This document shows positions 2,247 through 63,850 of a stretch of 64,000 nucleotides of DNA, one piece after another. The stretch's first letter is position 1; the number at the start of each line of letters is the position of its first letter. Under the pieces are notes generated by a model. The model saw nothing but the letters and a program-made list of their open reading frames with translations, searched no databases and was not told where the DNA came from. The DNA comes from Hirudinaria manillensis (taxonomy: Eukaryota; Annelida; Clitellata; Hirudinida; Hirudinidae). The stretch lies in contig CM067526.1 of NCBI GenBank assembly GCA_034509925.1, forward strand, positions 2,388,501-2,452,500, given 5' to 3'. The translations under genes were made by a program, and so were the position numbers.

Positions 2247-3973
2247 ATGTCAAACATTTTGGATATATGTTTTTTCCTACTTTTTGTAAAAGGTGAGAAA
2301 TGATTTTGTACCACAGTACTAATAAATGTGAAAATCTCCTAATAAAAAAAGTCAGTTCGATTATATAATATCAATCTATTACGTAGTTGTTAATAATTAT
2401 TAAGCAGATAAAAGACTAACATAGTTGGCGTTCAAGCAGATTTTGTCTTTAAATTTCTTAAATTGTTAATCCAGAGGTACAGAACGAGAACAACAATGGC
2501 TCAACATATTCAACAGAGACATTAATCCGTAAAATAGGAAGCAGTGTCTTCATTGAGTGTAACGCTTGTAACGCTGCTTCCAGGCAGTGGACCCACAAAT
2601 CCATAAATGGAGGTAATGGATTGGAAGATCTTGGAAAGGGGTCCGAAAAGGTCCGAAATAAATTAGACGAAAAGGGGGAACCACGTTATAACTTTTCAAC
2701 AAATGATTCAAATTGTACTTACAACATATTTATCACTGGAATCCAATCTGGTGATGCTGGAACATTTATATGTTGGGACGGTTCGGTATTATTAAAAACA
2801 GTCGTTGTTGTTGTCATAGGTGAGGTGTTTGTCACAATTAATTGGATCTGTTTTTTTTTTATAATAAACAGCAATTTTTTTTATTAATCAAATAATGTAT
2901 ATTTTAATTGATAGAAAAACCCGGCAACTGTTCCAACGAACCGGAGTTCACGCATTCCAAAAATATAATTGTGAAACAAAATGATCCGGTCACGAATTTC
3001 GAATGCTATTTCCAATATTCAGCAGATGAATCATGTATTGTTACTCCTATTTGGACAGACTTCACAGGATATAGAAATTTCAGCATACCTCTCTATGGTG
3101 TTGAAGTTAATGCTGATAACAAGCATGCATGGATTGAATTCAAGCCTGGTGCTGATATCACTAATGGAACACGTCTTAACCTGTCTTTGTCTTTTAACTG
3201 CTTCTCAAACAACAGTCAGAATCATCGCATTGGACGCTATGATTTCGGACTTTTACCTTTCATATTTTATGTTGAAGGTAAAACAGGTTTGTCATCAACA
3301 TTTGGACACTATGTATATTTCTTGGATTGACAATATAATGTTTATATTTGCTATTTTTAATTATTTATATTTTATTAGTAAATATAAATTGCAATTAAAA
3401 ATTAGTTAAACGTTATGATTGTGGTTTAGTTTATTCGTGCATGGTAACTTGTATGAATATATTATTAGGTAATGGCCATGGCGGCCACAAAACGAATCAA
3501 CCGTTCAAGACAATTACCATCATAGGCATTGTAATTACTGCTATTGTGTTGGTTCTTTCAATCTCCTGGATATTCATCAAGTTATATCGCGGTAATTTTT
3601 ATTTTTGCTTGAGACTAATTTAATAAAACTAAAAGATTTATTTTTTTTAAGTTTTAATTTTTTTATCATTAATAATCATTTATATTTTTGAAATACCAAC
3701 ATGCCATAAACAATATGCAAATAAATTCATGTCAGCGAATCTTAAAGTAAAAAATAGTAACTAAATATATCTAATTTTTGATAATTTATTAACTTATATT
3801 AAGTAAAATAAATTTTGTTTCAAGAGGCTAGAAATATTCCGACCGGCGATATTCCCTGTCCCGTTGAAATGAAGGATTTTACTCTTAAGGGTGGGCCTGA
3901 ATTTGAAACTCCAGAAGATGAAACTTATGATTTCATAAACGACTATGAGCACAACGATTCCAAGTTGATGTGA
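2247..3973 (+). CDS. R1: two-Ig type I membrane receptor, hemITAM-like tail
   Basis: Exons 2247-2292, 2475-2819, 2915-3277, 3469-3591 and 3825-3973 join in phase 1 to give 341 residues. Residues 1-15 are a hydrophobic leader (MSNILDICFFLLFVK). D1 (16-130) has ECNACN, QW and a terminal CWDGS. D2 (131-251) has ADESCIVTPIWTD and HAWIEFKPGAD plus several N-glycosylation sequons. The TM exon (252-292) holds a roughly 20-residue hydrophobic stretch followed by KLYRG. The 49-residue tail has one strong tyrosine motif, PEDETYDFI, with acidic residues before YxxI, which recalls a hemITAM; it lacks the paired motif of most neighbours. All donors are GT and all acceptors AG. R3 is its duplicate. The ligand is unknown; a surface recognition role is inferred from architecture. 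Confidence 0.87.
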
Positions 3974-5734
3974 AATATTTAAGTGAGGAATCGGATGCAT
4001 TATCACTTCATCTCAGAGACTTAAAGTTAATGAATTTTTTTGGATTTTCGACTTTTGATCTATAAACATTACAGACGTTACAGACATTAAACATCTTAGA
4101 AACGGAACACAGCAGCTTTTTTTTTACAATTATTGTATAATTAATTTAAGAGAACATAAAAGCCAATCATACCAGCTTTGATTCATTTTTTTTTGTATCG
4201 GGTTGTGTTAGAATTGGAATAGAATGCTATTATCAGACACTCTGGAAGCTGGAAAGTAGAGATAAATAGCTTATCTCTCTACATTTCGGAAGCAAAGCAA
4301 GTGAATTGTAGTTGAATTAATTGATAATGTCCATTCTCCAACTTGATTATGAATCGAAAAAGTTTTTTTGATGGATGAACTGCATAACCACAAGTTTCAT
4401 AAAGAGGTTATTTCATGCAGTTAGCCTTTGTGATATTTTTCGACGTTAATAACATTAAGAACTCGGTGGTTGAATAATTGAATTAGTACGATTATTTTTC
4501 AGTAATTTAAATTCGGTTTCATCAAGTCGAAATAGAAACATACATAGTTACTTACAGTTACTTGCACAATTTACAGACTTTTTTAAAAATAGATTTATTA
4601 GAGTACAAAATATAAAAAAACATTACGTGGAGTTTAACTGATAAATGACTTTGATATATAATGTCAATTCAGGAATTCAGTTGAACTGAAAAAAAAATGA
4701 TTGATGGTATTTTGGATTCATATATTGCTGAATTTTGTAATGAATTAAGAGTGTATTAATTTTAAAAGAATTAACCATTCTTTGATTCACATTAAACAAA
4801 ATATAATCCTCTCACGGTTACCTTAATATATATATCAATTAGTTGCAAAAAAAAATAAATATTTTCCATGTTTTAGAGAAAATTTCGGAAAATAATTATT
4901 ATTTATTAACTACAATATTAGACTTTGATTTTTAAAAACACAAAATGTATTGCCACATTCCTCTCCTCCCATTCTCTTCCTTTTCATGCATAAAAAATGT
5001 ATCTTCATAAGGAGGCAACTGGTAAATATGAAATATTTAGATGGCCAGATGTACAGATCTAAAATGAAATTTATATTTACTTAAAAATGCAAATGTGATT
5101 TTTTCCTTAGAAATGGTTGTGCCCACATCTGCAATAACTAATTATAGTTATTTTGTAGCGCAATGAAAAAAGCTAACATTTGCCTTATCTGTGAATTAAA
5201 AAATAATTAAATATCAAGCATTTTTTTCAAACCTTTTCAATAAAATTTATATCGACTGCCTCATACTTACATGCAAAACTCAAGCTATGCAAATAATAAT
5301 CCCATTAACATAACTAATTATTAACAGCAACTGGCAAGGGTAGGGGCTAAAATGAAACTTTCCGTCGTAGATGCGTATCTTAGCTGCACGAGACTAGAGG
5401 CTTTTTTCTCATCCTATTTCATAGAAACACTGTTACTGTGATAGTTTTATTCATTAGTCGGAAGTCTTAGCTGTAACTTGCTAGAATTTAAATCAAAAAT
5501 AAATTTAAATAAACACAAATAAACAAATTCGTTGAGAACATATTCAGCATCAAAAGGAAATGAAGTTTCAGTTAAAGTTCCCATTATCCATTTCAACTAT
5601 TAATTTAAACGTTTTGAAGTTTAAAGTATGAAACTAAAAAATTGAAAATAAATGAGATAGATTATATTCTAGATTTAATCTTGATTCTACACAAATATTT
5701 CATCTCGTTGCGGTTTTATACAATATACGCCCAA
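3974..5734. other. Intergenic between R1 and R2
   Basis: This 1.76 kb AT-rich spacer has no supported exon. Most of it aligns by eye with 15042-16889 between R3 and R4, including CTCCCATTCTCTTCC near 4965/16090 and GGTAGGGGCTAAAATGAAAC near 5340/16499. It therefore belongs to duplication A. It presumably holds the R1 3' UTR and the R2 promoter. Confidence 0.6.
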
Positions 5735-8700
5735 ATGATGTCATTAAAATTGTTTCTGAACTACTTCTCTTACCTTATGTTTGTAATGCCAGGTTAGTCT
5801 GCTTAACCAAGCACATATTCAATGCTTAATCACTGTCAAAATTTAGAAGAAAAAACTATTCAAAAACTATCTATTAAATAATAATTTGGTTTCAGGGAGC
5901 CCAGCCACATCTTTGAATGAAAATGTAATAACGACAAAAATTGCTCAGAAAGGATCTCAGATCTTACTTAGATGCAATACAGCCAATCGTACTCCCTGTA
6001 ATACCCATTCTCTTTACTGGACCTATAAATTACCAAGCGGAGAAGACGAAGATATCATTGATGGAAACAGCCTAATCAGGAAAGAAATATACCCACTAAA
6101 TGAAATGCAGTACAATCTTTTAACAGATCAGAATTGCGCGCATGATCTATTACTCGAGGAAATACGTTTCAGTGCAGCTGGTTTATTTATATGTTGGAAT
6201 GGTGAGACCGAATTAAAGAAAGCAAATCTCATCGTCATAGGTAATATAATTTATAGAATATTACTATAGTAAATGCAGCCAGTTAAAAATAAAGAACAGC
6301 CAAAGATATTTTTGGTAATACACCTAAATCTCGGAATAAATTTTATAAATGCAGATGACAGAAAAACTTGTACCACCTCAGCAGAAGTATTCAACTCACA
6401 TGACGTCGTCATCTACGAGAATAACAGACCTTTTACCATAAATTGCACACTCCAATATTCAACTGATGATTCTTGTGTAGCTTCGCCTATCTGGGAGGAC
6501 ATTACATATAACAGGATCTTGACTTCATCTGAAAATGGTTTCAAGATTACTATGGAAAACAGACTTGCTTCTCTTTCATGGAAGCCTAATATTGAAAATG
6601 AGATTGATATTAGATACGGAATTCAGTTCAATCTCTCCATTTCCTTCAACTGTTCATCGTTTTCAAATAATAGCCAAGATGTACGACAACAAGGAACGTA
6701 CGATTTCGGAACAGTACCGTTCACCTTTTATGTCAAAAGCAAGGGTATATTATATATTTATGATGCCATTTCTGCATCGTCTAGCTTTTTGCGATTACTG
6801 ACTACAGATATGATATGGTGTTCATTATTAATTTGCTAATTGTTTTTTCTTTTTCCAATCGCATAGCTGTGTTATGCCTTAAAAACAGATTGCGTAAAGT
6901 TTTATGGCAATATAACAACATTTTTAAGACCTGGTTTATACATATTTCTTTATTCACTGAATCTTGCTATAGTTGTAAAACGTCAAATCATTTTTTGTTT
7001 CCTGAAAGTTTGTTAATTAGTACAAGTGCCGACCTTTTGAGTTTGCATAAATTAATGATTTATAAATCTAAGCCAAACACATAGGCTCATACCCCAATTC
7101 TTTCAATATGTAAACATTTAAAGGAAAGCTATCTATTAACTAATAATTTGATTTCAGGGGTCACCGATAAATTTTTTAATGGAAATGTGGTAACGACAAA
7201 AGTTGGGCGCAAAGGATCTCAGGTCTTACTTAGATGCAATTCAGCCAATCGTAATCTCTGTAGTGCCCATTCTCTTTACTGGACCTATAAATTACCAAGC
7301 GGAGAAGACGAACGTATCACTGTTGGAAACATCCCAATCATGAAAGAAATATACCCACTAAATGAAATGCAATACAATCTTTTAACAGATCAGAATTGCG
7401 CGTATGATCTATTACTCGAGGAAATACGTTTCAGTACAGCTGGTCTATTTATATGTTGGGATGATTCAACTGAATTAACGAAAATAAATCTCATTGTCGT
7501 GGGTAAATCAATTTATCGAATATTACTTTAACTTTTTCTTATTAATGTAACAATGTACTAATAGGAATGCAGTAAATCTCGTTTTCTGATGTTCGAATGA
7601 GTTTTGACTACATGGTGGCAGAGGGCGCTCACTTAATAGCTAGCCAAAAATAAAACAGAAGTAAAGACTTTAATGCCATTGTAACTTTTTTAAATGCAGA
7701 CGACAGAAAAAATTGCTCCATCTCACCAGAAGTATCACACGATATTGTCATCATTATTGATGAGAATACCTTACTGTTTACCATCAATTGCATACTCCAG
7801 TATTCAACTGATGAATCTTGTTTAGCTTCGCCTATCTGGAAGGATCTTACACATAACAGGAGCTTAACTTCGTCTGAAAATGGTTTCAAAATTACTATGG
7901 AAGACAGACTTGTTTCACTTACTTGGCAGCCCAATATTGAAAAAGAGATTAGTATCGGAGCTATAATTCGGTTCAATCTTTCAGTTAACTTCAACTGTTC
8001 ATCATTTTCGAATAACAGTCGCGATATACGACAACAAGGAATGCACGACTTTGGAACAGTACCGTTCATCTTTTATGTTAAAAGCAAGGGTATAGCATGC
8101 AATCCTAAAATTTTTATTATAATTCTAAGCCGTTAAATTTTGTTTATCTATTATTGCTTATTATTTATCTTTGTTTATCCACGACAAGATGTGAGCGATA
8201 ATAAGGTTTTGTGAAGCTGTGGATGAGGAACTAATTATAAATAGATGGTTCCTCAGATGGTTTAGTCTCATTCAAGTCTTTTTAGAGGCTAATTTTGGGT
8301 TACATGCACCAGTAATTTTAAATAATTCTTATTTGGCTTAGGATTGCTTGATCAATCAGAATCTGCTAATTATCATGGCGAACTTATTTGATTTAGTTAA
8401 TCGCAAGCAGTACATCGTTTTTCTTGATAGGAACAGCGATTGAATCAAAGAGGGAAGAAACCATGACTATGGTGGCAATAACGACTGGAAGTATACTTGT
8501 GGTGGCGACGGTTGTGACGGTGGTCATACTTATCGTCTGCCTGAAAGTGCGAGGAAAGTTTTATTTCGGTAAAATTGGATCAGAAATTTTTTGTAGAGAG
8601 AAGTTGTATGTAATTTAACTTATTTGTTTAAAGATTTTAAAATTGGCAAAACAGAATTAATATTTTTTAATCATAAGATTCATTGCAACTTTTGGACTTA

Positions 8701-9262
8701 CTCGACAGAAAACCTATTTCCTCACATACTCACAACTTTACTGCTACAATTTTGGACACGTTTGAATGCTAGAAGTCTCTGTATTTAGGGCAAAGTGATG
8801 TTAAAGATAGATTTGAATCCCGCTCGTCGAACACTATCATGCTCACCTTCTTTCTTTTGAATCCGGACAGCTTCTGCCCTGACTTTATGTAATTGTACTT
8901 ATGTAACTATGTAAAATAATATCCTTTTGTCTTTGCCTATGTGCATCTTCGAGACCCAGTTATCAATAGGATTCCAGCCATTATTTGATTCAGCAAATCC
9001 TTGAGCAATTACAAGGGAAGCCACTTTTTCGGTCATGATCTGATACTAACAACATTAAGTGAAATAGTATGGTAGCAATGCAAATACTTTGATATAATTG
9101 ACTGCTATTTCCATTAGAATCTTTTAAACGGTAACTCATTTTTGACACTATTACTATAAATAATGAGTTCGATATTTACAGTTAGATCCTAATGTAATTC
9201 CTCTACTAACAGCCAGAAATGCCCAGATTAGGACTTCTGAATTAAGCGTGATAGGTAAATAA
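5735..9262 (+). CDS. R2: four-Ig membrane receptor with prematurely stopped tail
   Basis: Exons 5735-5792, 5896-6240, 6355-6744, 7158-7502, 7700-8089, 8431-8568 and 9213-9262 join in phase 1 (571 residues). The leader is 1-19. The order is D1a (20-134), D2a (135-264), D1b (265-379), D2b (380-509), TM exon (510-555), and a 16-residue tail. D1a and D1b share ILLRCN/VLLRCN, HSLYWTYK and LLLEEIRFS; the D2 copies share SNNS and RQQG. R4 has a single pair, so R2 carries an internal duplication that includes about 100-200 bases of the preceding intron. The tail exon has an in-frame TAA at 9260-9262 where R4 reads CAA, which removes every tail tyrosine. The donor GTAAAT at 9255 overlaps this point and could in principle be used, but I see no downstream partner exon. 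Whether all four Ig exons enter one mRNA is inferred. Confidence 0.75.
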
Positions 9263-9418
9263 CTGCCTGAAGTTCCAGAGATAGAAGACTACACTGGATT
9301 CACAACTGACCAACAAACGACTCATGTTTATGAAACTGTGGATGATGGTACTTACGATGCCAGTGACAGTCTCTCTGAGCTAACTTGTAGTAGAAACTAC
9401 ATACCAATCATTGAGTAG
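9263..9418 (+). pseudogene. Untranslated remnant of the R2 signalling tail
   Basis: After the TAA at 9260 the same frame stays open to TAG at 9416-9418. It still encodes tail-type sequence parallel to R4, including LPEVP, DYTGF, HVYETVDDGTYDA and NYIPIIE. The frame therefore remains readable apart from one nonsense codon, though the second paired tyrosine has lost its +3 isoleucine (YDAS versus YDVI in R4). The change is either recent or bypassed by readthrough or editing. Confidence 0.75.
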
Positions 9419-13322: not shown

Positions 13323-15041
13323 ATGTCAAACATTTTGGATATATGTTTTTTCCTACTTTTTGTAAAAGGTGAGAAATGATTTTGTACCACAGTACTAATA
13401 AATGTGAAAATCTCCTAATACAAAAGTCAGTTCGATTATATAATATCAATCTATTACGTTATTGTTAATAATTATTACGCAGATAAAAGACTAACATAGT
13501 TGACGTTCAAGCAGCTTTTGTCTTTAACTTTCTTAAATTTGTTAATCCAGAGGTACAGAACGAGAACAACAATGGCTCAACATATTCAACAGAGACATTT
13601 ATCCGCAAAATAGGTAGCAGTGTCTTCATTGAATGTAACGCTTGTAACGCTGCTTCCAGGCAGTGGACCCACAAATCCATAAATGGAAGTAATGGGATGG
13701 AAGACATTGGAAAGGGGTCCGATAAGGTCCGAAATAGATTAGACGAAAAGGAACCACGTTATAACTTTTCAACAAATGATTCAAATTGTACTTACAACCT
13801 ATTCATCACTGGAATCCAATCTGGTGATGCTGGAACATTTACATGTTGGGACGGTTCGGTGGTATTAAAAGCAGTCGTTGTTGTCGCCATAGGTGAGGTG
13901 TTTGTCACAATTAATTGGATCTGGTTTTTTTTTTTATAATAAACAGCAATTTTTTTTATTAATCAAATAATGTATATTTTAATTGATAGAAAAACCCGGC
14001 AACTGTTCCAACGAACCGGAGTTCACGCATTCCAAAAATATAATTGTGAAACAAAATGATCCGGTCACGAATTTCGAATGCTATTTCCAATATTCAGCAG
14101 ATGAATCATGTATTGTTACTCCTATTTGGACAGACTTCACAGGATATAGAAATTTCAACATACCTCTCTATGGCATTGAAGTTAATGCTGATAACAAGCA
14201 TGCATGGATTGAATTCAAGCCTGGTGCTGATATCACTAATGGAACACGTCTTAACCTGTCCTTGTCTTTTAACTGCTTCTCAAACAACAATCAGAATCAT
14301 ACCATTGGACGCTATGATTTCGGCCTTTTACCTTTCATATTTTATGTTGAAGGTAAAACAGGTTTGTCATTCACATTTGGACACTATGTATATTTCTTGG
14401 ATTGACAATATAATGTTTATATTTGCTATTTTTAATTGTTTATATTTTATTAGTAAATATAAATTGCAAAATAAAAATTAGTTAAGCGTTACGATTCTGG
14501 TTTAGTTTATTCGTACATGTTAACTTGTATGAATATATTATTAGGTAGTGACCACGGTGGCCAAAAAACGAATCAACCGTTCAAGATAATTACCATCATA
14601 GGCATTGCAATTACTGCTATTGTATTGGTTTTTTCAATCTCATGGATTTTCATCAAGTTATATCGCGGTAAATTTTTTTTTTGCTTGGGGCTAATTTAAT
14701 AAAACTAAAAGATTTATTTTTTTAAGTTTTAATTTTTTTATCATTAATTGAATATTTTGAAATCCCAATATGCATATAAATTCATGTCAGCGAATCTTTA
14801 AGTAAAAAATAGTAACTATATTTTTATAGTAAATATGTTTAATTTTTGATAATTTATTATCTTACATTAAATAAAATAAATTTTGTTTCAAGAGGCTGGA
14901 AATATTCCGACCGGCGATATTCCCTGTCCCTTTGAAATGAAGGATTTTACTCTTAAGAGTGGGCCTGAATTTGAAACTCCAGAAGATGGAACTTATGATT
15001 TCATAAACGACTATGAGCACAACGATTCCAAGTTGATGTGA
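13323..15041 (+). CDS. R3: two-Ig type I membrane receptor, duplicate of R1
   Basis: Exons 13323-13368, 13551-13892, 13990-14352, 14545-14667 and 14893-15041 join in phase 1 (340 residues). The leader is 1-15, D1 16-129, D2 130-250, TM exon 251-291, tail 292-340. It differs from R1 by one codon lost in D1 (EKEPRY versus EKGEPRY) and scattered substitutions. The tail motif is PEDGTYDFI, again one acidic-flanked YxxI. Splice junctions sit at the same places as in R1. Every exon is intact, so both copies look functional. Confidence 0.87.
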
Positions 15042-16889: not shown

Positions 16890-19800
16890 ATGCTGACATT
16901 AAAGTTGTTTCTGAACTACTCGTTTCTTGCGCTTCTAATGCCCGGTTAGTCTGCCTCTTTATAATTAAAGATTTATAAATCTAAACCAAACACATGTTCA
17001 ATGCTTACTACATGTCAGCTTTAAAAAAAAATCTATTAAATAATAATTTGGTTTCAGGGGGCCCAGCCACATCTTTGAATGAAAATGTAATAACGACAAA
17101 AATTGCTCAGAAAGGGTCTCATGTCTTACTTGGATGCAATTCACCTAATCGTAATCTCTGTAATGCCCATTCTCTTTACTGGACCTATAAATTACCAAGC
17201 GGAGAAGACGAAGATATCATGGAAGGAAACAGCCCAATCAGGAAAGAAATGTACCCACTAAATGAAATGCAGTACGAACTTTCAACAGATCAGAATTGCG
17301 CGTATGATCTATTACTCGAGGAAATACGTTTCAGTGCAGCTGGTCTATTTATATGTCGGGATGGTTCGACCGAATTACAGAAAACAAATCTCATCGTCAT
17401 AGGTAATATAATTTATAGAATATTACTATAGTGAATGCAGCCAGTTAAAAATAAAGAACGAGCAAAGATATTTTTGGTAATACACCTTAATCTCGGAGTA
17501 AATGTTATAAATGCAGATGACAGAAAAACCTGTACCACCTCAGCAGAAGTATTCAACTCACATGACATCGTCATCGACGAGAATAACAGAACTTTTACCA
17601 TAAATTGCACACTCCAATATTCAACTGATGATTCTTGTGTAGCTTCGCCTATCTGGGAGGACATTACATATAACAGGATCTTGACTTCATCTGAAAATGG
17701 TTTCAAGATTACTATGGAAAACAGACTTGCTTCACTTTCATGGAAGCCTAATATCGAAAATGAGATTGATATTAGATACGGAATTCAGTTCAATCTCTCC
17801 ATTTCCTTTAACTGTTCATCGTTTTCAAATAATAGCCAAGATGTACGACAACAAGGAACGTACGATTTCGGAACAGTACCATTCACCTTTTATGTCAAAA
17901 GCAAGGGTATAGCAAACAATTTGTAATGTCAGCTTTCCTGACTTTTTGCCCAATTTTATAGACTAATGACTAATGATATAATGTTTATTTCGTAACTATA
18001 TTCTGTGTTTTCAAGTGCAATATAACCCTTCTAAACCCTGTTCAGATAATCGATGTAAAGTCGTACTTTTAAAAGGACAAATTATAATCCCTCTTCCATA
18101 GAGCTTTTTCCAACCACAAAAAATTATTTCACTTTTGCTTTAAGTCACAATTTTTTGCAGAATTGTTTAGCATTTGCCATCGCAAATATTAACATTAACG
18201 CAAACATCATTAATCCATTAATTATCTTAATATGAATATTCTTGAACAATTGTTTCATTTGAGAGTGAAGGTAGTAGTAATTTCCTTCTAAATGCATTTA
18301 TTGGAAACTAATCCAAACAGAGTTTTTGACAGACTATTAGAATTATACTAATTTCTGAATGGCCAATTCCGAAATTATTATAATTTATTACAATTGGCCC
18401 GCGTATAAAAGTATAAACTTTTTTTTAGTTAATTGCAGACGAGGTTTAAATCGAAAGTAACAAATAATGTACTCCATCAGCCCACTTTAGATACATGAAG
18501 GAGAGTATTTTAAAGATCGAGTTTAATATATGCCACCACTTAATTATAAGAAAATAATTAAGTTCAATTGGCTCAACTGGCTAATTTCAACGTAACCAAT
18601 TTTATGCAGCAACCTCCTAATCTTTAAAAATATTAAAGCACATGCTTAGAAATAATCATTGCAAATATTTCTTTAGTTATATTTCACACCTTCGAGTTGT
18701 AGATAATGTTTTGCTTTTATTTATAGGAGTTAAATAGATACGAATTCTTATCTAATATCCTTTTTATTTGACAGAAGAAATTTTTGAAACTGCCCCCACG
18801 ACGCTTACCATTTACGAGGGTAAATTTTTACATTTATATGCATTTACGATTAATTTATTCGAATCTTTAATTTTTTTGCGACTTTATAAAGTTGAATTTG
18901 CAATAGAGGCTATTAATTAATAGACTTTATTTTTAATTCCTCGTAAACGAAATAATTGCTTTTTATTTAGCTCCATAATTGTCCCTAGCTCGTTAAAATA
19001 TTGTATATCCTCCAGGGAATTCAATCATTTATTTGATTGTTAGAAAATATCGCTTTAGATAAACAACGGGTTTTTGTGTACGATATTTTGATTTTCATTA
19101 AGGTTATGGTTAGAACTGGTTGGCTAATCAGATATAATTTCAATTATCCCCATTTTTAAAATTACTTCCAATAAAGCAATTCGCTTGACTTGGCAGAAAC
19201 AGTGACGAGCGAATCAAAGAGGAAAGAAGCTCCGACTACACTAACTGCGGTATTCACGACTGGTGGCACACTTTTTGCAGCGTTTGTTGTGACTTTGGTC
19301 ATACTTATCGTCTGCTTGAAAAAGCGAATCTCAGGTAAAATTGGATCAAAAATTTATTTTTTAAGTCGGACATTATTTGTATGTAACTAAATTTGTAGTA
19401 AATTTGTTTAAAGATTGTAAACTGGATAAACATAATTAATATTCTTTAATCACAAATTTGATTTTCGATTTTGGAAAAATATTTATCATACCTTCACTGC
19501 TACATGCCGTGGACTTTGAACATCATTCTGGGGCCACCTTTACTTTTGATCAGGAGAGCTTCTGACCTGACTTTAAGTAACTGACCAAATATAAAATGCC
19601 CTCTAGGGTATGCCTTTAAATTACTATTTTCTACTGCGTCTTCAGATTTTGGTAATTTTCTTTGATTCAACAAATCTCTGAGCGAGTGCAAGCTAATCAA
19701 AATATAAAATAAATCATGATTTGGTTTTTAAATTGTATTGGTAACATTGCACTTTACCCTAAAATATCTGGTTGATGGTTCTATCAGCGTCTTTTTAACA

Positions 19801-44526: not shown

Positions 44527-46301
44527 ATGTTGAAGAAATATTTTGGTTTCGCTTTTGCTCTTCTCGTACATGGTTAGGCAATCATTTGTTTCTGTTATTT
44601 TATCGGAAATTCAATAAAACTATCTGGAACTTTGAGAGTGATTTTGATGAGAGCAACAATATTATTATATCTCAATCCGCAAATTAAAGCTTCGTAACTC
44701 GGAATAACCTTAATCGAAATTTGATTCAAATATAAAACATTAAAATTGTATTTATTAAAAGATATTCACATTTTTATTCCAGCTTCAAATCTTGAGAACT
44801 CTGCAAAAACTAATACAGTGGTAGCAGTTGATTCAACAATAATTGCAGAGAAAGGAATGAACGTTACTATTGAGTGCAACAAATCTTGCAATTTCGATTC
44901 TCCACTTTGGACTTATAAACAACCAAATGAAGCAGGTTTTGAGGACCTCGTTGTTGTGGGCAGTGGTTCGATTAGGAACAACATTCCTGGAAGAAAGGAT
45001 GACTGGTATAAGATCGTAAATGGCGCAAACTGTAAGCAGACTTTGTTTCTACCTGAAATCCAGTTTGAAGCAACCGGAGTTTATGCCTGCTGGGAAGGCT
45101 TATTGGCTAAAGGAATGACAAATGTTATTGTTGTTAGTGAGTGATATCGATATGTTATCAGTCTATTTAAACTTTGTTAATGATTATTTTTTTAATTAAA
45201 AATTCACAGATACAAACAAAACTTGCTCAATTGAGCCTGATTTCTCAGACTCAGAAAATATCCTTCTGAAACAAAACGATTCAATCACCATCAGATGTTC
45301 TTTCCAATATTCAGCAGATCAATCATGCATCGCTACTCCCATTTGGACAGATCTCACAGGATACAGAAATTTAACGATATCCGCTAATGATTTCGAAGCC
45401 AACATGGATGACAAACATGCATGGATCCATTTCAAACCTGGTGCTGATATAAGAAATGGAACAAGATTCAATCTATCCTTTGCATTTAATTGTTCTCTCA
45501 CAAACTCCAGCGATAAAATTCACAGTTCAGAACGATATTATTTTGGTCTTATACCATTCAGAATTTATGTTGACGGTATGTCTTAAAATGTATGTTTAGT
45601 TTAGATTTTCGTGGTTGATTTTGAAACTGAATTGGTATTTGGTACGGAACAACGTTTAAAATGCAATTTATTTGGTGGAATTATTATGTCAAATACAGAA
45701 TTTTTTTAATGAAAATATGTTTTTTTTTAGGAATTTCTTACAATAACCAGAGCAATGGTAAGATGGCCGATGCCAACACCTTAATCATAGTTGGGATCAA
45801 TGCAGCTCTTGCAATCCTCATCATCTTCTTCCTCTTCCTTGTTTTCCTAAAAAAGTTTTCCCAACTGTGTTTTGGTAATTATGTAATTTAAATGTTCAAC
45901 TTAACCTTGAGAACCTGCAATTAGTATTCTATTTTTTATGCGAAATTTACCTCAATTGGTTTAACATTTAAAACTTAATTGAGGATAATCTCCTTTTAAG
46001 ATTAAAGTAACACGATTATCCAATGTTAAGTACGATGATACACCAAGGTTTTACCCCCACTTACTTCCTCTTAAAAGATATTTATTACTAATTAGCTCGC
46101 AGTAATGAAAGGACAAACAATGACATCAGCGATTCGGATGCAACAGCAGTTTCCAAAGTCGAAGGTTACGTTGGAATCAGAAAAGACTTACGACCTGAAG
46201 ATACTAATGTCTATGATGCCATTGGCGATGGGAATTATGAATCGATTATGGATCCTGGCAAGCCAGAATGCCTCGTTGACTGTTTCCATAAAGATGAGTA
46301 G
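44527..46301 (+). CDS. R12: two-Ig receptor with compact tyrosine-pair tail
   Basis: Exons 44527-44572, 44783-45136, 45210-45575, 45731-45874 and 46096-46301 join in phase 1 (371 residues). The leader is 1-15 (MLKKYFGFAFALLVH). D1 (16-133) has ECNKSCN, LWTYK and YACWEG, with one residue added to the usual CxxC. D2 (134-255) has SADQSCIATPIWTDLTG. The TM exon (256-303) has a long stalk then LKKFSQLCFG. The 68-residue tail has GYVGI and VYDAIGDGNYESI. A competing frame in the tail exon is longer from its own ATG but lacks family motifs; the acceptor TTAG at 46092-46095 restores the conserved frame. R16 is its damaged duplicate. Confidence 0.86.
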
Positions 46302-48054: not shown

Positions 48055-50420
48055 ATGCTGAAGATATTTGCAGGCATTTCTCTGCTACTTTTCCTTTACG
48101 GTCAGTAAGTAAATATGTTTCACAATTATTTAGATTAGGTTGTGAATTTATGCAAAATTAATTGTAAGGTTTTTGGCTACATATTTATAAATATATATTT
48201 TTAATTACAGTAATTAAATAAATAACTAATTAAATAGATATTTATAATATCTATTTGTTGTTTGAGGAAAGAATCAGTATCTTAATTATAAATACATGAC
48301 CCTAGCCTTTGTAATTTCTAATTACAAATAGATATTTATAATTAAAAAATAAAAGTAATGACCACTTTAAAATATATATAAATTTTAAATATTAAAAATG
48401 AAGGCATACAAAAAGAGGAGTGTGCAGAGTTGATAAGTGCATTTTGGTTAAACAACAAGCCAATTGAAGCAATTAAAATTGTCTACGTTGGGGAAATCAT
48501 TACCATAGAATGTCACTCGTGTGATATCAATCACCTGCAGTGGACATACAAACCAAAAAACGGGTCGCAAGAAGAACTAATTAAAAGAAGAAATACTATC
48601 AGGAATAGAAACCCTAAAAAGGGGGCCGGGTGGTTTGGTTTGATGAGCAATTCGACCAGCTGTTCCTATCACTTGATGTTGAATGAGATCCAATTTGATT
48701 CTGCTGGAGTCTACAGCTGTTGGGATAATACGGCTGAACTTAGAATAAGAAACGTCATAGTCATAAGTGAGAACCTCTCAATTGTTAGCTATTTTATTAG
48801 TTTTAATATCCAATTACTTTGATATTTTTCTTTACAATTAACAGCCGAGAGTCAAGCTTGCTTTATTGAAGAATTTCCAGATTCTGAAAACCTACTTCTG
48901 AATCAAAATGATTCGGTCACCATCAAATGTCCTTTCCAATATTCAGCAGATGAATCGTGCATTGTTACTCCCATTTGGACGGATCTCACAGGATACAGAA
49001 ATTTCATGATACCCTCTCAGGATTTCGCAGCCAAAATGGATGACAAACATGCATGGATCAATTTTAGGGCAGGTGCCAGACTTAAGAACGGAACTCAATT
49101 CAGCCTATCGTTTGACTTCAATTGTTCTTCTTTTAAAAACAACAGTCATGATAAACACATTCTGGCCCTATACGATTATGGTCACATACCATATACATAT
49201 TTGGCGGGAGGTGAGAATCTACTGTGATTGTGACCAATGATTGACTTGTCTGACATAATTTAGCATGTTTCAGAGCTTTAGTATGTGAAGCAAATTCAAT
49301 TTGACCAAGTCTTGAACCACAATTAGAGTTATGTTGGTCTCAATAATTTAAACAAAATGCGATCGCAAACCCAACAAAATACAATACAACTATCTAATTG
49401 TATTACATTTAACAAAAGACGCTCAGTTATAATAACTGTATTTTTCTCAGTACAATTACATTATGCAATTGAACTTTCACATCAATTGAACATTTTCTAC
49501 TGCGAACAGGAAGCTACTAAATTCGTTACCAATTAACAATTGTAATTGTAAATGACTACCAAGAACCTTGGGCATAATAGTTTGGGAGGAAGAAATAAAC
49601 ATTTTAAAAATGAATATTTTATATTATAACTGCATAATTAAAACTTATTTTTAAGCTACTTTACTCGTAATATTAAAATTTTAGGTTCGCGCAAGTAGAT
49701 TGTTGCACAGCTATTGTTTGCTCAACACAATTTTTTGAACTTTTGTCCAGACATCCCCACAGAAATCCTAGAGAAAGTCTCCACTGCTTTTGATCCAGTG
49801 CTAATTATTTGGGTTACAATTACAACTTCTGTCATTTCTATTCTGGCCCTTTCATTGCTCGTGGTGTGCCTGAAACATCACAAGAAATTATGTTTCGGTA
49901 AATGTTTATAAGTATTAACATTGTATTCAATGGCTGATATTGAAAATTGTCAAGTGTTTAGTTTAATTCCTCTAGTATATCTTTGCTGCACAATTTTCCT
50001 TTTGATTTTGAATATTATGGACTTGTAAGTGATTAAAGAACCTTTGGACCGGGTTAAAAAATAAATAAAATGATGATAATCAATAAATGAAAACCAGAAG
50101 TAAAATATTCTCTTAATTAAAAGTTTATTTATAATTTATGAAAGACACTAACTCTATTTAGATTTTAAATAGTTATTCTACATTTTTTCAAAGTTCATTT
50201 TTAAGATTATTTTGTTTTTAATTTTCAAGCATATTCCAGACAAGAACACGAAAAGCGTGAGATATCTGTGCTCGGAAAACCTATGCCTGAAGTTCCAATG
50301 GACGTTGGATATAGAAACATTGATAAAGAATTGCGAGCCAAAGATGTCAGATTTTACGAGGTCATTGAGGACGGGGCCTACGAAGCTATTGCCGACACTT
50401 CTGAGACAACTACATTGTAG
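48055..50420 (+). CDS. R13: two-Ig receptor with compact tyrosine-pair tail
   Basis: Exons 48055-48100, 48428-48766, 48845-49210, 49751-49897 and 50230-50420 join in phase 1 (362 residues). The leader is 1-15 (MLKIFAGISLLLFLY). D1 (16-128) has ECHSCD, LQWTYK and YSCWDN. D2 (129-250) has SADESCIVTPIWTDLTG and FKNNS. The TM exon (251-299) ends LKHHKKLCFG. The 63-residue tail has MPEVP, GYRNI and FYEVIEDGAYEAI. It is the intact counterpart of R17. Confidence 0.86.
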
Positions 50421-52272: not shown

Positions 52273-54742
52273 ATGTTATGGTTGACTTTCTTGCTCCTCT
52301 TGCAAGGTTAGCAGATAATTTATGAAAATATTAGACTTTTACTTAATAACGAGGTTTTGGACTTTAAATGGAAACTTCTGACATTTGTTTTTTTACGCCA
52401 AAACACTTTATTAAAAAAAGGATTATATTTAAAAGAAAAGTATAAAAACATTTTAAAAAATAAGTAAGATTCAAACTGATTTCTAGCAGTTAATGGTTAT
52501 TCCCCTTTGACAAGTACAAAGATCAATAAAATTCAGCAAAATACTTAGTTCGCAGATAAATGTAAAATCAAAAATTAAACTAACATAGTTGACATTTTAA
52601 CAGATTTTGTCTTTAACTTTTTTTAAATTGTTAATCCAGAGGTACAGAACGAGAACAACAATGGCTCAAGATATTCAAAGACATTTATTTGTAAAATAGG
52701 AAGCAGTGTCTTCATTGAATGTGAGACATGTAATGCTGCTTTCACTCAGTGGACTTACAAATCCATAAATGGAGATAAGGAATTGGAAGATCTTGGAAAG
52801 GGATTCGAAAAGGTCCGAAATAGATTAGATGAGAAGGGTGAACCACGTTATAGCTTTTCAATAAATGATGCAAATTGTACTTACAACCTACTCATCACTG
52901 GATTCCAATCTGATGATGCCGGAACATATACTTGCTGGGATGGTTCGGTGGCATTAAAAACAACCTTTGTTGTGGCCATAGGTGTGTTGTTTGTCATAAT
53001 TAATTAGATCTGATTTTTTTTTAATAATAAACAGCAATTTTTTTTATTAATCAAATAATATAACTTTAAATTGACAGAAAAAACCGTCAACTGTTCCAGC
53101 GAACCGGAGTTCCTGCATTCCAAAAATATAATTGTGAGACAAAATAACCCGATCACGAAGTTCAAATGCTATTTCCAATATTCAGCAGATGAATCATGTA
53201 TTGTTACTCCTATTTGGACAGACTTCACAGGATATAGAAATTTCAACATATCTCTCTATGGCATTGAAGTTAATGCTGATAACAAGCATGCATGGATTGA
53301 ATTCAAGCCTGGTGCTGATATCACTAGTGGAACACGTCTTAACCTGTCTTTGTCTTTTAACTGCTTCTCAAACAACAGTCAGAATCATCCCATTGGACGC
53401 TATGATTTCGGCCTTTTACCTTTCACCTTTTATATCGAAGGTAAAACAAATTTGTCATTAATAGTTGAACACAATGCTGATAATGTTTATATTTGCTATT
53501 TTTAATAATTTATAACAAAAATTAATTAGCATTATGATTATGATTTAATTTTTATTTATTGTTAATTACTATTTGAACAATTTAAATTAATTACATACTT
53601 TTATCCATTGTATTTCAACTGACACTAATATTATTATTATTTTATATTATCATTTACTCAGTTAATGTTTTAATTTCACGACATTAATGTCTCAAATTCA
53701 AATTTAAGAAAATGCACATTAGTAATTTAATTGGCGGTTTAATGATTGTTTCACTTTTAGTTTTTAGACATTTGAAGTTTCGTTGGAACCTAATTATAAT
53801 TAACAATAATTATTAACGTGTGAATCCTGTGGTTCCGGGTCAAATTATCATATTGCATCGTTAAACTTGCAACTTTTATGGGAAAAGTAATTTTTAATCA
53901 ATAATCAGTTTAAATAATAATTTTTACCTCAATAAATTTTTACCTCGTAAAATTTATTTTATTATTTACATCATTCCTTAAATTTAATGAAAACTATGCA
54001 GACATATTTCCGATATGGGATTTCCTATTTAGTAATTAATGTGTTTCAACAATTATTTAAACTCCTGCTATTAGATCTACTGCTTCTAAATAAATATATA
54101 AATACATAAATCTATGTATGGTTTACAGAATTAAATTATAAAATTGATTTCAGGAAGGGGTGAAATCAACACCTTTAGTCTCATTGTTGCACTGAGCACA
54201 TGTACAGTTTTAGTGACGGTTTTTTCGACACTTGCTTTGTTTCTGTTGTGCCTGAAGAAATATTCCAAGTGCTGCTTTGGTAAAGATTTTATTATTTCCA
54301 TATTTATTCGATCTCATTAGGAATTTTGATCTCCATCAAGTGATGATTATCTTTTTATTAATGTTTAAAAATAGATTAAATATATTAAATTGATAAAGTT
54401 TGCTTTATATTTAATAGATATTCAATATTAAGAATAAAGTGATAAAACTAATAAACTTCATCTCGCATTTTAAATACAATTTTGTTACTAAAGTAAAAAT
54501 TATACATTGCTATGTTGGACTTGGAACATTAAATTTTCTCAGTAATACTAATTATTCTCACAGATAACAGGGCAATTACAGAAACAATTGCAATGGGGAA
54601 AGATCCTCCTGAAAAGCCAAAGGATGGAAAATACACTGGATTAAGAGAAGATCTTCGAACAGATATCTCCACTAATTACGAGTTTATGAATGAAGGAACC
54701 TATGAAATCATTGTCGAACCTGAGGAGCCAGTAGACATTTGA
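52273..54742 (+). CDS. R14: chimera-like receptor, R1/R3-type ectodomain on R15-type TM and tail
   Basis: Exons 52273-52306, 52640-52981, 53078-53440, 54154-54279 and 54564-54742 join in phase 1 (347 residues). The leader is 1-11 (MLWLTFLLLLQ), unlike R1/R3. D1 (12-125) and D2 (126-246) are close to R1 and R3, and the similarity extends into introns (e.g. the T-rich tract and AATAAACAGCAA near 53020). The TM exon (247-288) ends LKKYSKCCFG and resembles R15. The 59-residue tail has KYTGL and NYEFMNEGTYEII, matching R15 (LREDLR versus LREDRR). The exon set is intact and likely functional. Confidence 0.86.
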
Positions 54743-55544: not shown

Positions 55545-56981
55545 ATGCTCAAGATGAGTTTATGTTATTTTTGTTCTTTTGCAGCAACGATGCAAAGTTT
55601 GTAAAGTTTTATATTTTCAAATTTTTTTCCTCGTTAAAAGTTAATAAACCGATAAATAAATAATCGATATATTTATGTGAAACATAAAAGAAATTAATAG
55701 AAAAATTGAATCCAGCCTTACAATTATTAGAATCATTGATGAACTACAAATGGGTTAAAATCATTTTACTCAATATTTAATTTTAGGAAAAATTAAATTT
55801 ATTGCAGTTATTTATAGCTTCGTGCAGAATAGCGAGTCCATGCAAGAATCTCAATCAAGAGAAAATTTTAATGTAACAACAAAATTTATAAAAGTCGGAG
55901 AAGATGTTACCATTGAATGTAATTTTTGTAATATTGATGGCCTGGGATGGACGTACAAGGGCCCAAACAGACAACATGAACTAATTGCAATAAAAAATAA
56001 ATTAATCAGAAAAAAACATCAAGGAAAAAATGTTTCATGGTTTGAACTCATAAACAATTCAACCTGCAAATACAGTTTGTATTTGCCTAAAATCCAATTA
56101 GGTGCTGCTGGTTTATATTCCTGTTGGGAAGACATGATAAGAAAAGTAACTGCAAATATTATCGTTATAAGTGAGTGAATTTGATTAAAATTTCTCTCAA
56201 TTTATTAAAAATGTTATTAACATTGTTATTTTAATTTTAATAGGCGATAACCCCAATTGTTCAAGCGAACCAGAATTTCCAGACTCTAATAACATTCTTT
56301 TGAAACAAGAAGATCCATTTACCATCAAATGTTCTTTTGAATATTCAGCAGATGAATCATGTATTGTTACTCCTACTTGGACAGATCTCACAGGATACAG
56401 AAATTTAATGATACCCGCTGATGATTTCGAAGCCAACATGGATGGCAAACATGTGTGGATCCATTTCAAACCTGGTGCTGATATAAGAAGAGGAACACGT
56501 TTCAACTTATCGCTAGCATTTAATTGTTCTTCCTTAAGCAACAGCGGACTAGAGGGTCGATATGACTTTGGTCAATTACCATTTACATTATTTACAGAAG
56601 TTGAGGACTCATTTAGATTCATTGTTACACTGAGCTCTTGCACAGTTTTAGTGATGTTTTTATCATCACTTGCAATATTTCTGATGTGCCTGAGGATTTA
56701 TTCCAAATTGTGCTTTGGTAAAGTTTATATTGCTTCCATATTTATTTGATCTCCTTTTGAACTTTGATTTCAATCAAGATATGTTTATCAGGGCCGATTT
56801 TTAACGGCAAAAGTTTAACATTTTATCAAGTCATTGAATTTCTTGCAAAACTTTTGGGTTAAAAAGGCATCTTAGAGTAAAAGGCTTCTTTGGAAATTGT
56901 GATGAAGTATATGTAAATATTCTCACAGCTAACAGGGCAAACAGCATTGAACTCGGAAAAGATCCTTCTGAAAATGATTGA
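55545..56981 (+). CDS. R15: two-Ig receptor, fused D2-TM exon, tail cut by TGA
   Basis: Exons 55545-55596, 55808-56170, 56244-56717 and 56929-56981 (313 residues). The leader (1-17) could start at 55545 or 55554, and its donor GTTTGT is weak. D1 (18-138) has ECNFCN, LGWTYK and YSCWED. D2 and the TM segment (139-296) are read through as one exon: D2 has SADESCIVTPTWTDLTG and runs through FTEVEDSF directly into the membrane span, ending RIYSKLCFG. Every other + strand family member has an intron at that join, so an intron was lost here. The tail exon meets TGA at 56979-56981, where R14 has GGA, removing the tail tyrosines. Confidence 0.78.
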
Positions 56982-57095
56982 GAATACATCGGATTAAGAG
57001 AAGATAGGCGAACCAGTATCTCAAATGTTTATGATGTTATAAATGAAGAAGCTTATGAAACCATTGATGATCCTGAGAAGCCAGTGGAAATTTAA
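56982..57095 (+). pseudogene. Untranslated remnant of the R15 signalling tail
   Basis: Beyond the TGA the frame stays open to TAA at 57093-57095. It keeps EYIGL, VYDVINEEAYETI and DPEKPVEI, parallel to R14. An AATAAA follows at 57171. The motifs are undamaged apart from the single nonsense codon. Confidence 0.78.
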
Positions 57096-58906: not shown

Positions 58907-60589
58907 ATGTTGAAGAAATATTTTGGTTTCGCTTTTGCTCTTCTCGTATATGGTTAGGCAATCATTTGTTTCTGTTATTTTATCGGAAATTCAATAAAAC
59001 TCTTTGGAACTGTGAGAGTGATTTTGATGAGAGCAACAATATTATATCTCAATCCCAAAATTAAAGCTTCATACGGAATAAACTTAATCGAAATTGATTC
59101 AAATATAGAACATTAAAATTGTATTTATTAAAAGATATTCACATTTTTATTCCAGCTTCATATCTTGAGAACTCGGCAAAAACTAAGGCAGTGGTAGCAG
59201 TTGATTCAACAATAATTGCAGAGAAAGGAATGAACGTTACTATTGAGTGCAACAAATCTTGCAATTTCGATTCTCCACTTTGGACGTATAAACAACCAAA
59301 TGAAGCAGCTTTTGATGACCTCATTGTTGTGGGCAGTGGTTCGATTAGGAACAAAATTCCTGGACGGAAGGATCTGTGGTATAACATCATAAATGGCGCA
59401 AACTGTAAGCAGACTTTGTTTCTACCTGAAATCCAGTTTAAAGCAACCGGAGTTTATGCTTGCTGGGAAGGCTTATTGGCTAAAGGAGTGACAAATGTTA
59501 TTGTTGTTAGTGAGTGATATCGATATGTTATCAGTCTATTTAAACTTTGTTAATGATTATTTTTTTAATTAAAAATTCACAGATACAAACAAAAATTGTT
59601 CAATTGAGCCTGATTTCTCAGACTCAGAAAATATCCTTCTGAAACAAAACGATTCAATCACCATCAGATGTTCTTTCCAATATTCAGCAGATCAATCATG
59701 CATCGCTACTCCCATTTGGACAGATCTCACAGGATACAGAAATTTAACGATATCCGCTAATGATTTCGAAGCCAACATGGATGACAAACACGCATGGATC
59801 CATTTCGAACCTGGTGCTGATATAAGAAATGGAACAAGATTCAACCTATCCGTTGCTTTTAATTGTTTTCTCACAAACTCCAGCGACAAAATTCACAGTT
59901 CAGGACGATATTATTTTGGTCTTATACCATTCAGAATTTATGTTGACGGTATGTCTTAAAATGTGTGTTTAGTTTAGATTTTCGTGGTTGATTTTGGTAC
60001 TGAATTGGTAATTGGTACGGAACAATGTTTGAATTTCAATTTATTTGGTGGAATTATTATGTCAAATACAGAATTCTTTTTAATGAAAATATGTTTTTCT
60101 TTTTAGGAATTTCTTACAACACCTTAATCATAGTTTGGATCAATGCATCTCTTGCAATCCTCATCATCTTCTTCCTCTTCCTTGTTTTCCTAAAAAAGTT
60201 CTCCCAGCTGTGTTTTGGTAATTATGTAATTTAAATGTTCAACTTAACCTTGAGAACCTCCAATTGGTATTCTATTTTTTATGCGACTTTTATCTCAATT
60301 GGTTTAACATTTAAAACTTAATTGAGGATAATCTCCTTTTAAGATTAAAGTAACACGATTATCCAATATTTAGTTAAGTATGATGATACACCAAGGTTTT
60401 ACCTCCACTTACTTCCTCTTAAAAGATATTTATTACTAATTAGCTCGCAGTAATGAAAGGACAAACAATGACATCAGCGATTCGGATGCAACAGCAGTTT
60501 CCAAAGTCGAAGGTTACGTTGGAATCAGAAAAGACTTACGACCTGAAGATACTAATATCTATTGTAATAACCCGGGGTCCTCAAACTAA
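58907..60589 (+). CDS. R16: two-Ig receptor with tail exon interrupted by an LTR
   Basis: Exons 58907-58952, 59156-59509, 59583-59948, 60107-60217 and 60444-60589 join in phase 1 (340 residues as interrupted). The leader is 1-15 (MLKKYFGFAFALLVY), D1 16-133 (ECNKSCN, LWTYK, YACWEG), D2 134-255 (SADQSCIATPIWTDLTG), TM exon 256-292. Eleven stalk codons present in R12 are missing without frame loss. The tail keeps GYVGI, then enters the inserted LTR after the tyrosine codon at 60560-60562 and stops within eight further codons at 60587-60589. The compact tyrosine pair is lost. Confidence 0.8.
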
Positions 60590-60861
60590 TTATAGAAGGT
60601 CAGGTTTATTGAAAGTTGTCAGATGGCTTGGAAGATGTACAATGCTTAATTGATTAAGTCTTGAAATCTGCTGTTTCTCTAACTCTCGCTCTGCTTTCCG
60701 AGATAAATCCATTTGTCAAGGTTCCTAACCAAAGAGTCTGAATAGCACCAATTAATTAATTCTCAAATTATATTGCCACTAAATTTAATTAATTATTAAA
60801 TTAATTAATCGGCAATATAATTTTAATTATTCTTCAATTTATTGGATCTAGGGATCCAGCA
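60563..60861 (-). mobile_element. 299-bp solo LTR inserted in the R16 tail exon
   Basis: The insert runs from TGTAATAACCCGGGG to GGGATCCAGCA. CTAT flanks it at 60559-60562 and 60862-60865, while the intact paralogue R12 has one CTAT at the same place. This is a clean TG...CA insertion with a 4-base target duplication. It is the same family as 11069-11373; orientation is given as in that copy. Confidence 0.92.
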
Positions 60862-60952
60862 CTATGATGCCATGGGCGATGGGAATTATGAATAGATTAG
60901 GGATCCTGGCAAGCCAGAATGCATCGTTGACTGTTTCCATAAAGATGAGTAG
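60862..60952 (+). pseudogene. Decayed remainder of the R16 tail exon
   Basis: This corresponds to the end of the R12 tail after the insertion point. It has accumulated further damage: the serine codon after NYE has become TAG, and the following ATG is AGG. The downstream end, FHKDE-type codons and TAG at 60950, is still recognisable. Confidence 0.8.
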
Positions 60953-62700: not shown

Positions 62701-63850
62701 ATGCTGAAGATATTTGTAGGCATTTCTCTGCTACTTTTCCTTTACGGTCAGTAAGTAAATATGTTTCACAATTATTTAGATTAGGTTGTGAATTTATGCA
62801 AAATTAATTGCAAGGTTTTTGGCTACATATTTATAAATATATATTTCTAATTACAGTAATTAAATAAATAACTAAATAAATAGATATTTATAATATCTAT
62901 TTGTTGTTTGAGGTAAGAATCAGTATCTTAATTATAAATACATGACCCTAACCTTTGTAATTTCTAATTGCAAATAGATATTTATAATTAAAAATAATAG
63001 TAATGACCACTTTAAAATATGTATATAAATTTTAAATATTAAAAATGAAGGCATACAAAAAGAGGAATGTGCAGAGTTGATAAATGCATTTCGGTCAAAC
63101 AATAAGCCAATTGAAGCAATTAAAATTGTCTTCGTTGGGGAAATCATTACCATAGAATGTCACTCGTGTGATATCAATCACCTGCAGTGGATATACAAAC
63201 CAAGAAACGGGGCGCAAGAAGAACTAATTAAAAGAAGAAAAACAGGAATAGAAACCCTAAAAAGGGGGCCGGGTGGTTTGATTTCATAACCAATTCAACC
63301 CTCTGTGCCTATCACTTGATGTTGAATGACATCCAATTTGATTCTGCTGGAGTCTACAGCTGTTGGGATAATACGGCTGAACTTAGAATAAGAAACGTCA
63401 TAGTCATAAGTGAGAACCTCTCAATTGTTAGCTATTTCATTAGTTTTAATATCCAATTACTTTGATATTTTTCTTTAAAATTAACAGCCGAACAAGCTTG
63501 CTTCATTGAAGAATTTCCAGATTCTGAAAACCTACTTCTGAATCAAAATGATTCGGTCACCATCAAATGTCCTTTCCAATATTCAGCAGATGAATCGTGC
63601 ATTGTTACTCCCATTTGGACGGATCTCACAGGATACAGAAATTTCATGATACCCGCTCAGGATTTCGCAGCCAAAATGGATGACAAACATGCATGGATCA
63701 ATTTTAGGGCAGGTGCCAGACTTAAGAACGGAACTCAATTCAGCCTATCGTTTGACTTCAATTGTTCTTCTTTAAAAAACAACAGTCACGATAAACACAT
63801 TCTGGCCCTATACGATTATGATCACATACCATATACATATTTGGCGGGAG
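62701..63850 (+). pseudogene. R17: R13 duplicate, frameshifted in D1, runs off the window
   Basis: The leader exon 62701-62746 (MLKIFVGISLLLFLY) and splice sites are intact. The D1 exon 63075-63409 is 335 bases against 339 in R13. A 4-base deletion near 63240 shifts the frame and leads to TAA at 63287-63289, before the final Cys-Trp of D1. The D2 exon 63488-63850 (one codon shorter than R13, with SADESCIVTPIWTDLTG intact) is undamaged. TM and tail exons lie beyond the window. An exon-skipping transcript joining leader to D2 would stay in phase 1, so a D2-only product cannot be excluded. Confidence 0.8.

Follow-up and report, generated by a model that had tools for sequence, protein, structure and literature searches.

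A tandem array of two-domain immunoglobulin-type receptors in a leech, with two tail classes, shared ectodomains and a putative paired-receptor organization

Receptors that combine matched outer parts with different tails are known from vertebrate immune cells, where this combination goes with opposing immune receptors, e.g., those of natural killer cells. The CEACAM1/CEACAM3-type, KIR, LILR, SIRP, Siglec and PIR receptors are clustered immunoglobulin (Ig)-superfamily genes with near-identical ectodomains and different tyrosine tails. This similarity is kept by conversion or recombination around the ligand-binding exons (PMC2832619). According to that paper, the CEACAM pairs of mammals go back to duplication with replacement of the tail exons; their members with immunoreceptor tyrosine-based inhibition (ITIM) and activation (ITAM)-type motifs share ligand-binding exons, and in several pairs the shared regions barely enter the flanking introns. 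Here, we describe an array of Ig-type receptor genes of the leech Hirudinaria manillensis, analysed from a 64,000-nucleotide stretch (the window, C1:2388501-2452500 of the 148.4-Mb, 23-contig genome) and its surroundings. The receptors would be type I proteins: a V-type Ig domain (D1) lies outermost, an Ig-like domain (D2) beneath it, and a transmembrane (TM) helix and a tyrosine-based tail follow.

Clustered Ig-like receptors with tail tyrosine motifs are also found at the Hydractinia Alr loci, but those are cnidarian allorecognition genes; PMC12065747 mentions ITAM/ITIM in allorecognition genes of Hydractinia. The same paper describes the Botryllus FcoR proteins, which are likewise type I, begin with a V-type Ig domain, belong to an expanded multigene family and carry YxxI/L/V tail motifs. 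Their domain plan (V Ig, sushi, two C2 Ig, TM, tail) is not that of the leech receptors, which have two Ig-like domains and no sushi match in the exons scanned, and FcoR has separate FF partner proteins, whereas the leech units are paired by a shared ectodomain. Among protostomes, the oyster CgIgIT2 is an Ig receptor with a tyrosine activation motif, but it has five Ig domains, and a matched-ectodomain pair is not described in the passages of PMC11999971 considered. From the vertebrate pairs, the leech array differs in a D2 without Pfam or convincing PDB sequence matches, in a TM core where no charged residue was noticed by eye, in a triple YxxPhi motif in one tail class and a single motif, mostly not a strict ITIM, in the other, and in its protostome host, and the opposing signals are putative. 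An earlier note on the window, made from its letters alone, had named hydrozoan Alr, tunicate and vertebrate paired receptors as parallels. Since matched ectodomains with different tails are the shared trait, vertebrate paired receptors are, by analogy, the nearest architectural parallel of the three, and the mammalian CEACAM genes come closest in logic.

A 26-unit array with two tail classes

Using tblastn over 184 kb, and exon models based on splice sites and reading phase, we located 26 two-domain (D1-D2) receptor units across about 100 kb (C1:2367-2467 kb), with U1-U6 upstream of the window, 16 within it and D1u-D4u downstream. The window holds 16 plus-strand units (g1-g5 and g8-g18) and a minus-strand relative, g6. 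The earlier note had seen seventeen related receptors filling the window, 16 of them in one orientation. Its outer coordinates agree with ours (the leader ATG of the first unit lies at 2247 and the final D2 exon closes at 63850), as do its count and orientations; g6, however, is a distant relative (its D2 is 20% identical to that of g13), the different receptor-like gene g7 also lies inside, and the array runs beyond the window. A genome-wide D2 search gave 38 matches, every one on C1. The strong ones comprise 25 at 2367-2467 kb and one more at 7.10 Mb; weaker matches, 12 in number, lie at 2420 kb (g8), 2503-2522 kb and 2972-3016 kb.

The modelled leaders end in phase 1, the internal exons keep phase 1 except in D1 of g18, and the borders are GT/AG. 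The layout expected by the earlier note, with leader, D1, D2, TM and tail on separate phase-1 exons, is thus found where exons were modelled, with deviations in g2, g3 and g16-g18. An open leader-D1-D2-TM-tail reading is present in 11 of the 16 plus-strand units (g1, g4, g5 and g8-g15) and the other five are defective (g2/g3, g16, g17, g18); therefore, the array is a birth-and-death family rather than seventeen intact genes. The earlier description as tandem, recently duplicating Ig-type receptors with tyrosine-signalling tails is supported.

The main finding, which goes beyond that note, is the presence of two signalling classes, S and P, with shared ectodomains. The P class comprises 14 units whose tails mostly read YxxPhi-x11-YxxPhi-x4-YxxPhi, while in the S class (U1-U6, g1 and g4) only the last of the three motifs is kept, as an acidic-TYxxI site. 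Among the 13 readable P tails (the interrupted g17 tail was left out), the spacing of the first two tyrosines is 15 in 10 (18 in g11, 13 in g12 and g3), and that of the second and third is 8 in 11 (7 in g10; 8 by eye in g3, where the last motif is degenerate). The x11 spacing fits the consensus of an extended ITAM in 10 of these 13 tails. At the position of the second P tyrosine (-8), the S tails carry Phe in five of eight cases and Ile in one. The label "paired-tyrosine" of the earlier note suits only some of the units: g1, g4, g8 and g9 have one YxxPhi motif, while three or four are present in g3, g5 and g10-g16 (behind an in-frame stop in g3 and g16). The single motif of g8 and g9 aligns by eye with the second motif of the P tails, and both were counted with S in the trees. 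The TM segment ends in LCF in 10 of 14 P units, and also in g9, and in WKx(Y/F) in six of eight S units (U1-U6).

D1-intron-D2 cassettes and the tree conflict

Self-BLASTN revealed that units lying far apart share patches of about 740-960 bp at 88-95% identity. Nine S-P comparisons in seven groups were made segment by segment: U1/g13, U1/g17, U2/D2u, U3/D1u, U5/g16, U6/D4u, g1/g15, g4/g15 and g9/g10. Nucleotide identity in these nine is 87-98% in D1, 81-100% in the D1-D2 intron and 88-96% in D2, versus 63-79% upstream, 55-74% after D2, 56-70% in TM and 58-71% in the tail. In the six main groups the cassette is 84-100% identical; outside it, in the flanks, TM and tails, identity falls to background level or close to it. 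The intron reaches 94-100% in four groups, 84% in U6/D4u, 89% between g1 or g4 and g15, and 81% in g9/g10; given that this non-coding segment is also near-identical, recent copying is indicated and not protein constraint alone. The non-partner control U4/D3u shows 57-71% in all segments, the same-class near-copies g1/g4 and g13/g17 show 84-100% in every segment, and the reverse pattern is seen in the P units D1u/g16, which have related tails (D1 72%, TM 87%, tail 92%). The longest matches end -61 to +53 bp from the D1 start and -61 to +23 bp from the D2 end in eight comparisons (g9/g10, which breaks into pieces, was left out; in flanking units the D1 start is the start of the protein match, an unproven exon border). 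At the amino-acid level, ectodomains are 81-93% identical between partners (n=9) and 29-60% between non-partners (n=131), while TM plus tail averages 27% in both sets. In six ectodomain groups the S-tailed copies occupy the early part of the array, and the P-tailed copies lie further on.

Since the cassette borders lie near the D1 and D2 ends and the intron is shared, recombination between the classes has copied the putative ligand-binding cassette from one to the other, most simply by gene conversion, a mechanism that is inferred. An alternative is an old whole-gene duplication followed by tail-exon replacement through a single crossover, with no continuing conversion. The CEACAM pairs provide a precedent for it (PMC2832619), and in g9/g10 the upstream 300 bp are raised as well (79%). 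In the six main groups, by comparison, the upstream 300 bp are 63-73% identical, versus 58-68% in five of six other comparisons that involve no near-copies (82% in the remaining one, D1u/g16), so that the cassette appears bounded at both ends. Also, the partners are non-collinear along the array, which argues against a single block duplication and, with the upstream values, makes tail replacement quite unlikely as the explanation. As the upstream 300 bp are not common to partners, their regulation may differ.

The two halves of the receptors were further compared in trees of 24 of the 26 units, with 10 S rows (including g8 and g9) and 14 P rows; g2, which lacks TM and tail, and the frameshifted g18 were excluded. 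The S/P label changes nine times on the ectodomain tree (shuffle mean 8.0; nine also for D1 or D2 alone) and once on the TM plus tail tree (0 of 500 shuffles as low), a fit that is partly circular because the label was read from the tails post hoc. The circularity is less for TM alone, with two changes (0 of 500 shuffles as low), and the weight therefore rests on the TM-only tree and on the approximately unbiased (AU) tests. Leaving out g8 and g9 gave seven versus one changes, in a run with the g16 TM in the wrong frame. On the tail tree, AU tests reject six of seven partner groupings, with p values from 8e-56 to 0.005 (U2/D2u 1.6e-4, U3/D1u 8e-56, U5/g16 4e-5, U6/D4u 4e-5, g1+g4+g15 0.0016, U1+g13+g17 0.005) that are optimistic, as the groups were picked after seeing the data. 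A clade of S units on the ectodomain tree is also rejected (p 1e-67 with g8 and g9, 5e-5 without), but with a log-likelihood drop of 1360 the constrained tree was perhaps poorly searched and the tail-tree tests are preferred. The evidence that points to pairing is thus the conflict between ectodomain and tail, together with the bounded cassettes. The number of mixed clusters is not part of it: S and P occur together in seven of eight supported ectodomain clusters, with a shuffle mean of 4.6 (p 0.07), which is not significant alone.

This last count, which chance could give, also agrees with an ordinary birth-and-death tandem array of adhesion- or guidance-type Ig proteins, in which neutral conversion of duplicates would account for the cassettes and the pairing would have no functional meaning. 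The several broken units fit such an array, and so does the D2 ratio of nonsynonymous to synonymous substitution (omega, NG86 method), which is below 1 in 11 of 12 comparisons; the ratio ranges over 0.25-1.03 in D2 and 0.21-1.51 in D1, and is higher in D1 in eight of the 12. Neutral conversion fits less well with high identity that, in six groups, stops near the D1 and D2 ends, unlike in the whole-gene copies g1/g4 and g13/g17, with the copied intron, which sets aside protein selection alone, and with the regular tail spacing (15 and 8) and the recurrent Tyr to Phe difference. We consider it unlikely.

Domains, gene models and neighbouring sequences

In the database and structure searches, the D1 profile matched V domains in PDB (shark VNAR, E 1.3e-6; the overall best match was contactin-1, 3.7e-7). 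Its predicted structure (predicted local distance difference test score, pLDDT, 67) gave 1337 Foldseek chains at E<=1e-3, with V domains in the first rows, and of three plus-array D1 exons scanned with Pfam Ig models two matched below the cut-off and the third had no match. On these profile and model comparisons D1 is assigned as a V-type Ig domain. The D2 model is structurally most like Ig folds; this domain, for which no sequence-family match was obtained, is probably Ig-like.

Compared with g13, D1 is 29-37% identical in the nine other plus-strand units aligned, and D2 42-70% (30% in g8). A V-type D1 that diverges more between units than D2, tyrosine tails and recent duplication are also what a graft or allorecognition complex would offer, with ectodomains that bind polymorphic self markers or perhaps one another, as at the hydrozoan Alr or Botryllus fuhc loci. 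The host, however, is a solitary leech, and the exons scanned lack the sushi domain of FcoR. A hydrozoan or tunicate origin of the DNA is also contradicted by the mitochondrial contig (C23), whose code (AGR=Ser, ATA=Met, AAA=Lys, judged at COX1 positions) and gene order (cox1-cox2-cox3-trnQ-nad6-cob, genes named by eye) are those of annelids. Graft rejection is described for leeches; no leech transplantation study appeared by title among the matches listed. We regard this explanation as very improbable; of the allorecognition or innate immune complex proposed in the earlier note, an innate or recognition role is retained as the best reading and allorecognition of the colonial type is not.

The gene models are given in Table 1. 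Since a leader is missing from g3, and TM and tail from g2, the two may form one four-Ig gene, with g2 as its 5' half and a stop in the tail.

Table 1. Receptor units and the embedded gene g7, in window coordinates
Unit	Positions	Strand	Exons	Model, tail class and partner
g1	2247..3973	+	leader 2247-2292, D1 2475-2819, D2 2915-3277, TM 3469-3591, tail 3825-3973	S; one YxxI, Phe at earlier tyrosine; ectodomain partner g15
g2	5735..6744	+	leader, D1 5896-6240, D2 6355-6744	TM/tail not found
g3	7158..9418	+	D1 7158-7502, D2 7700-8089, TM 8431-8568, tail 9213-9418	leader not found; tail interrupted by in-frame stop
g4	13323..15041	+		complete; S; near-copy of g1
g5	16890..20111	+	leader 16890-16944, D1 17058-17402, D2 17517-17906, TM 19197-19334, tail 19903-20111	P
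g6	20811..23560	-	D1 ~23097-23417, D2 ~22560-22912, TM ~21774-21918, long tail exon ~20811-21341	borders approximate; divergent
g7	~24557-28556	+		different receptor-like gene inside array
g8	30516..32177	+		complete; single YxxL, tail ends before last motif
g9	33645..35232	+		complete; single YxxF; TM end P-like (KLCF); ectodomain near-copy of g10
g10	36522..38078	+		complete; P; Y-Y spacings 15 and 7
g11	39158..40951	+		complete; P
g12	41761..43551	+		complete; P
g13	44527..46301	+	leader 44527-44572, D1 44783-45136, D2 45210-45575, TM 45731-45874, tail 46096-46301	P; partner S unit U1 (upstream)
g14	48055..50420	+		complete; P
g15	52273..54742	+		complete; P; ectodomain partner of S units g1, g4
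g16	55808..57095	+	D1, fused D2-TM exon, tail	leader not found; in-frame stop in tail; P; partner S unit U5 (upstream)
g17	58907..60952	+		copy of g13; tail exon split by 299-bp TG...CA insert at 60563-60861
g18	62701..63850	+		copy of g14; 4-bp deletion in D1 vs g14; TM and tail beyond window

The gene g7 has Ig-type exons, a TM segment, a Pro/Gly-rich stretch and a cytosolic part with a 233-aa exon frame (27855-28556). For this part, no Pfam match was found for the two exons scanned and no PDB match for the longer one; a beta-propeller would be a guess. The g17 tail is interrupted, with a CTAT direct repeat, by a long terminal repeat (LTR)-like TG...CA element of about 300 bp; related copies lie at 11061-11375, at C1:7.10 Mb and, counted in window coordinates, at +109 kb and +125 kb. 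Beside the first of these, 11350-12317 on the minus strand holds overlapping long open frames with internal near-repeats and no Pfam match above the cut-off. A copy of the g17 region, insert included, was found about 4.65 Mb away (C1:7095001-7105000, 98.3% identical over 3,863 bp), which reflects either unit dispersal or a scaffolding matter.

A distant subfamily at C1:2502501-2522500 includes two D1-D2 pairs in inverted, convergent arrangement, whose copies are 94-96% identical (2509.1-2509.9 with 2511.5-2512.3 kb, and 2519.0-2519.8 with 2521.6-2522.5 kb), with a candidate TM exon per copy. Outside the genome, a profile search found 12 D2-type proteins on ENA and lgn contigs, the best array match of each being 58.7-76.7% identical, among them a g11-like protein (77%) and two g6-like ones (65-66%); the D1 profile added three proteins. 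The family is therefore not confined to the H. manillensis genome and is probably present in other leeches. Other dense groups of Ig_2 matches, at C8:4724-4736 kb and C10:4806-4872 kb, are possibly further Ig arrays or long multi-Ig genes. Elsewhere, C9:3026446-3027786 matches COX1 with a score equal to the mitochondrial one, either a recent nuclear mitochondrial insert or a misjoin.

Putative signalling and biological meaning

Judging from sequence, we read the locus as a putative leech complex of paired receptors with matched ectodomains and two TM/tail classes, with a probability of roughly 0.7. Besides the optimism of the AU values and the circularity of the class labels, several points weigh against it. 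Neither the S unit U4 nor g8 has a close P partner, and the P partners g16 and g17 appear broken, though g13, the other partner of U1, is open. The g9/g10 tail clade is not rejected (AU p 0.335), and g9 has a P-like TM end. The upstream regions of some partners (U1, U6, g1), at 70-73%, slightly exceed most non-partner values (58-68%), and leader models cover the window units and not the 10 flanking ones. Moreover, the strict ITIM consensus fits the S motif in one of eight tails (U1), the mixed-cluster count falls short of significance, the omega values give no clear positive selection in the 12 comparisons, and the seven best Foldseek matches of D2 include a ZP-C domain.

In the paired-receptor reading, the arrangement would be the vertebrate paired-receptor architecture in a protostome, with matching kept by cassette conversion and with putative opposing signals. 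D1, and D2, would bind the ligand, and the members of a pair would bind the same or a closely related one on coelomocytes or other cells. The P tail, with its three YxxPhi sites at regular spacing, would recruit SH2 proteins as a multi-SH2 docking tail like an extended ITAM, and S, with one site, would signal more weakly or in the opposite sense; the assignment of activation and inhibition to the two classes is a guess. Conversion would keep the pairs matched while D1 changes. The probable use is innate recognition of microbes or of altered or foreign cells. On the cytosolic side, two loci (C13:7990-7993 kb and C8:5849-5853 kb), where SH2 hits spanning two domains precede a same-strand phosphatase hit, are candidate SHP-type phosphatase partners. 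For a Syk-type partner, no locus with two SH2 domains before a kinase match was found among the matches listed for the 130 of 913 kinase candidates scored, which does not show absence.

We lean, with some reserve, towards the broader view that this would be an independently evolved protostome system, in which germline cassettes are repeatedly copied between multi-tyrosine (activating-like) and single-tyrosine (damping- or inhibitory-like) chassis, each new specificity arising as a counterbalanced pair. Among the matches listed in the open-licence literature on invertebrate and tunicate Ig receptors, ITAM, leeches and graft rejection (titles and abstract starts), no annelid or protostome paired-receptor system appears, which does not show its absence from print, and the main text of a leech comparative-genome paper (PMC10087013) has no word beginning with "immun". 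If this view is correct, the same genomic logic in an annelid would be a convergent solution, and leeches, with chromosome-level genomes and coelomocytes, would provide an accessible animal in which to study why counterbalanced receptor pairs evolve. The locus is also a tangible candidate for the specific recognition, in leeches, of microbes or of self versus non-self.

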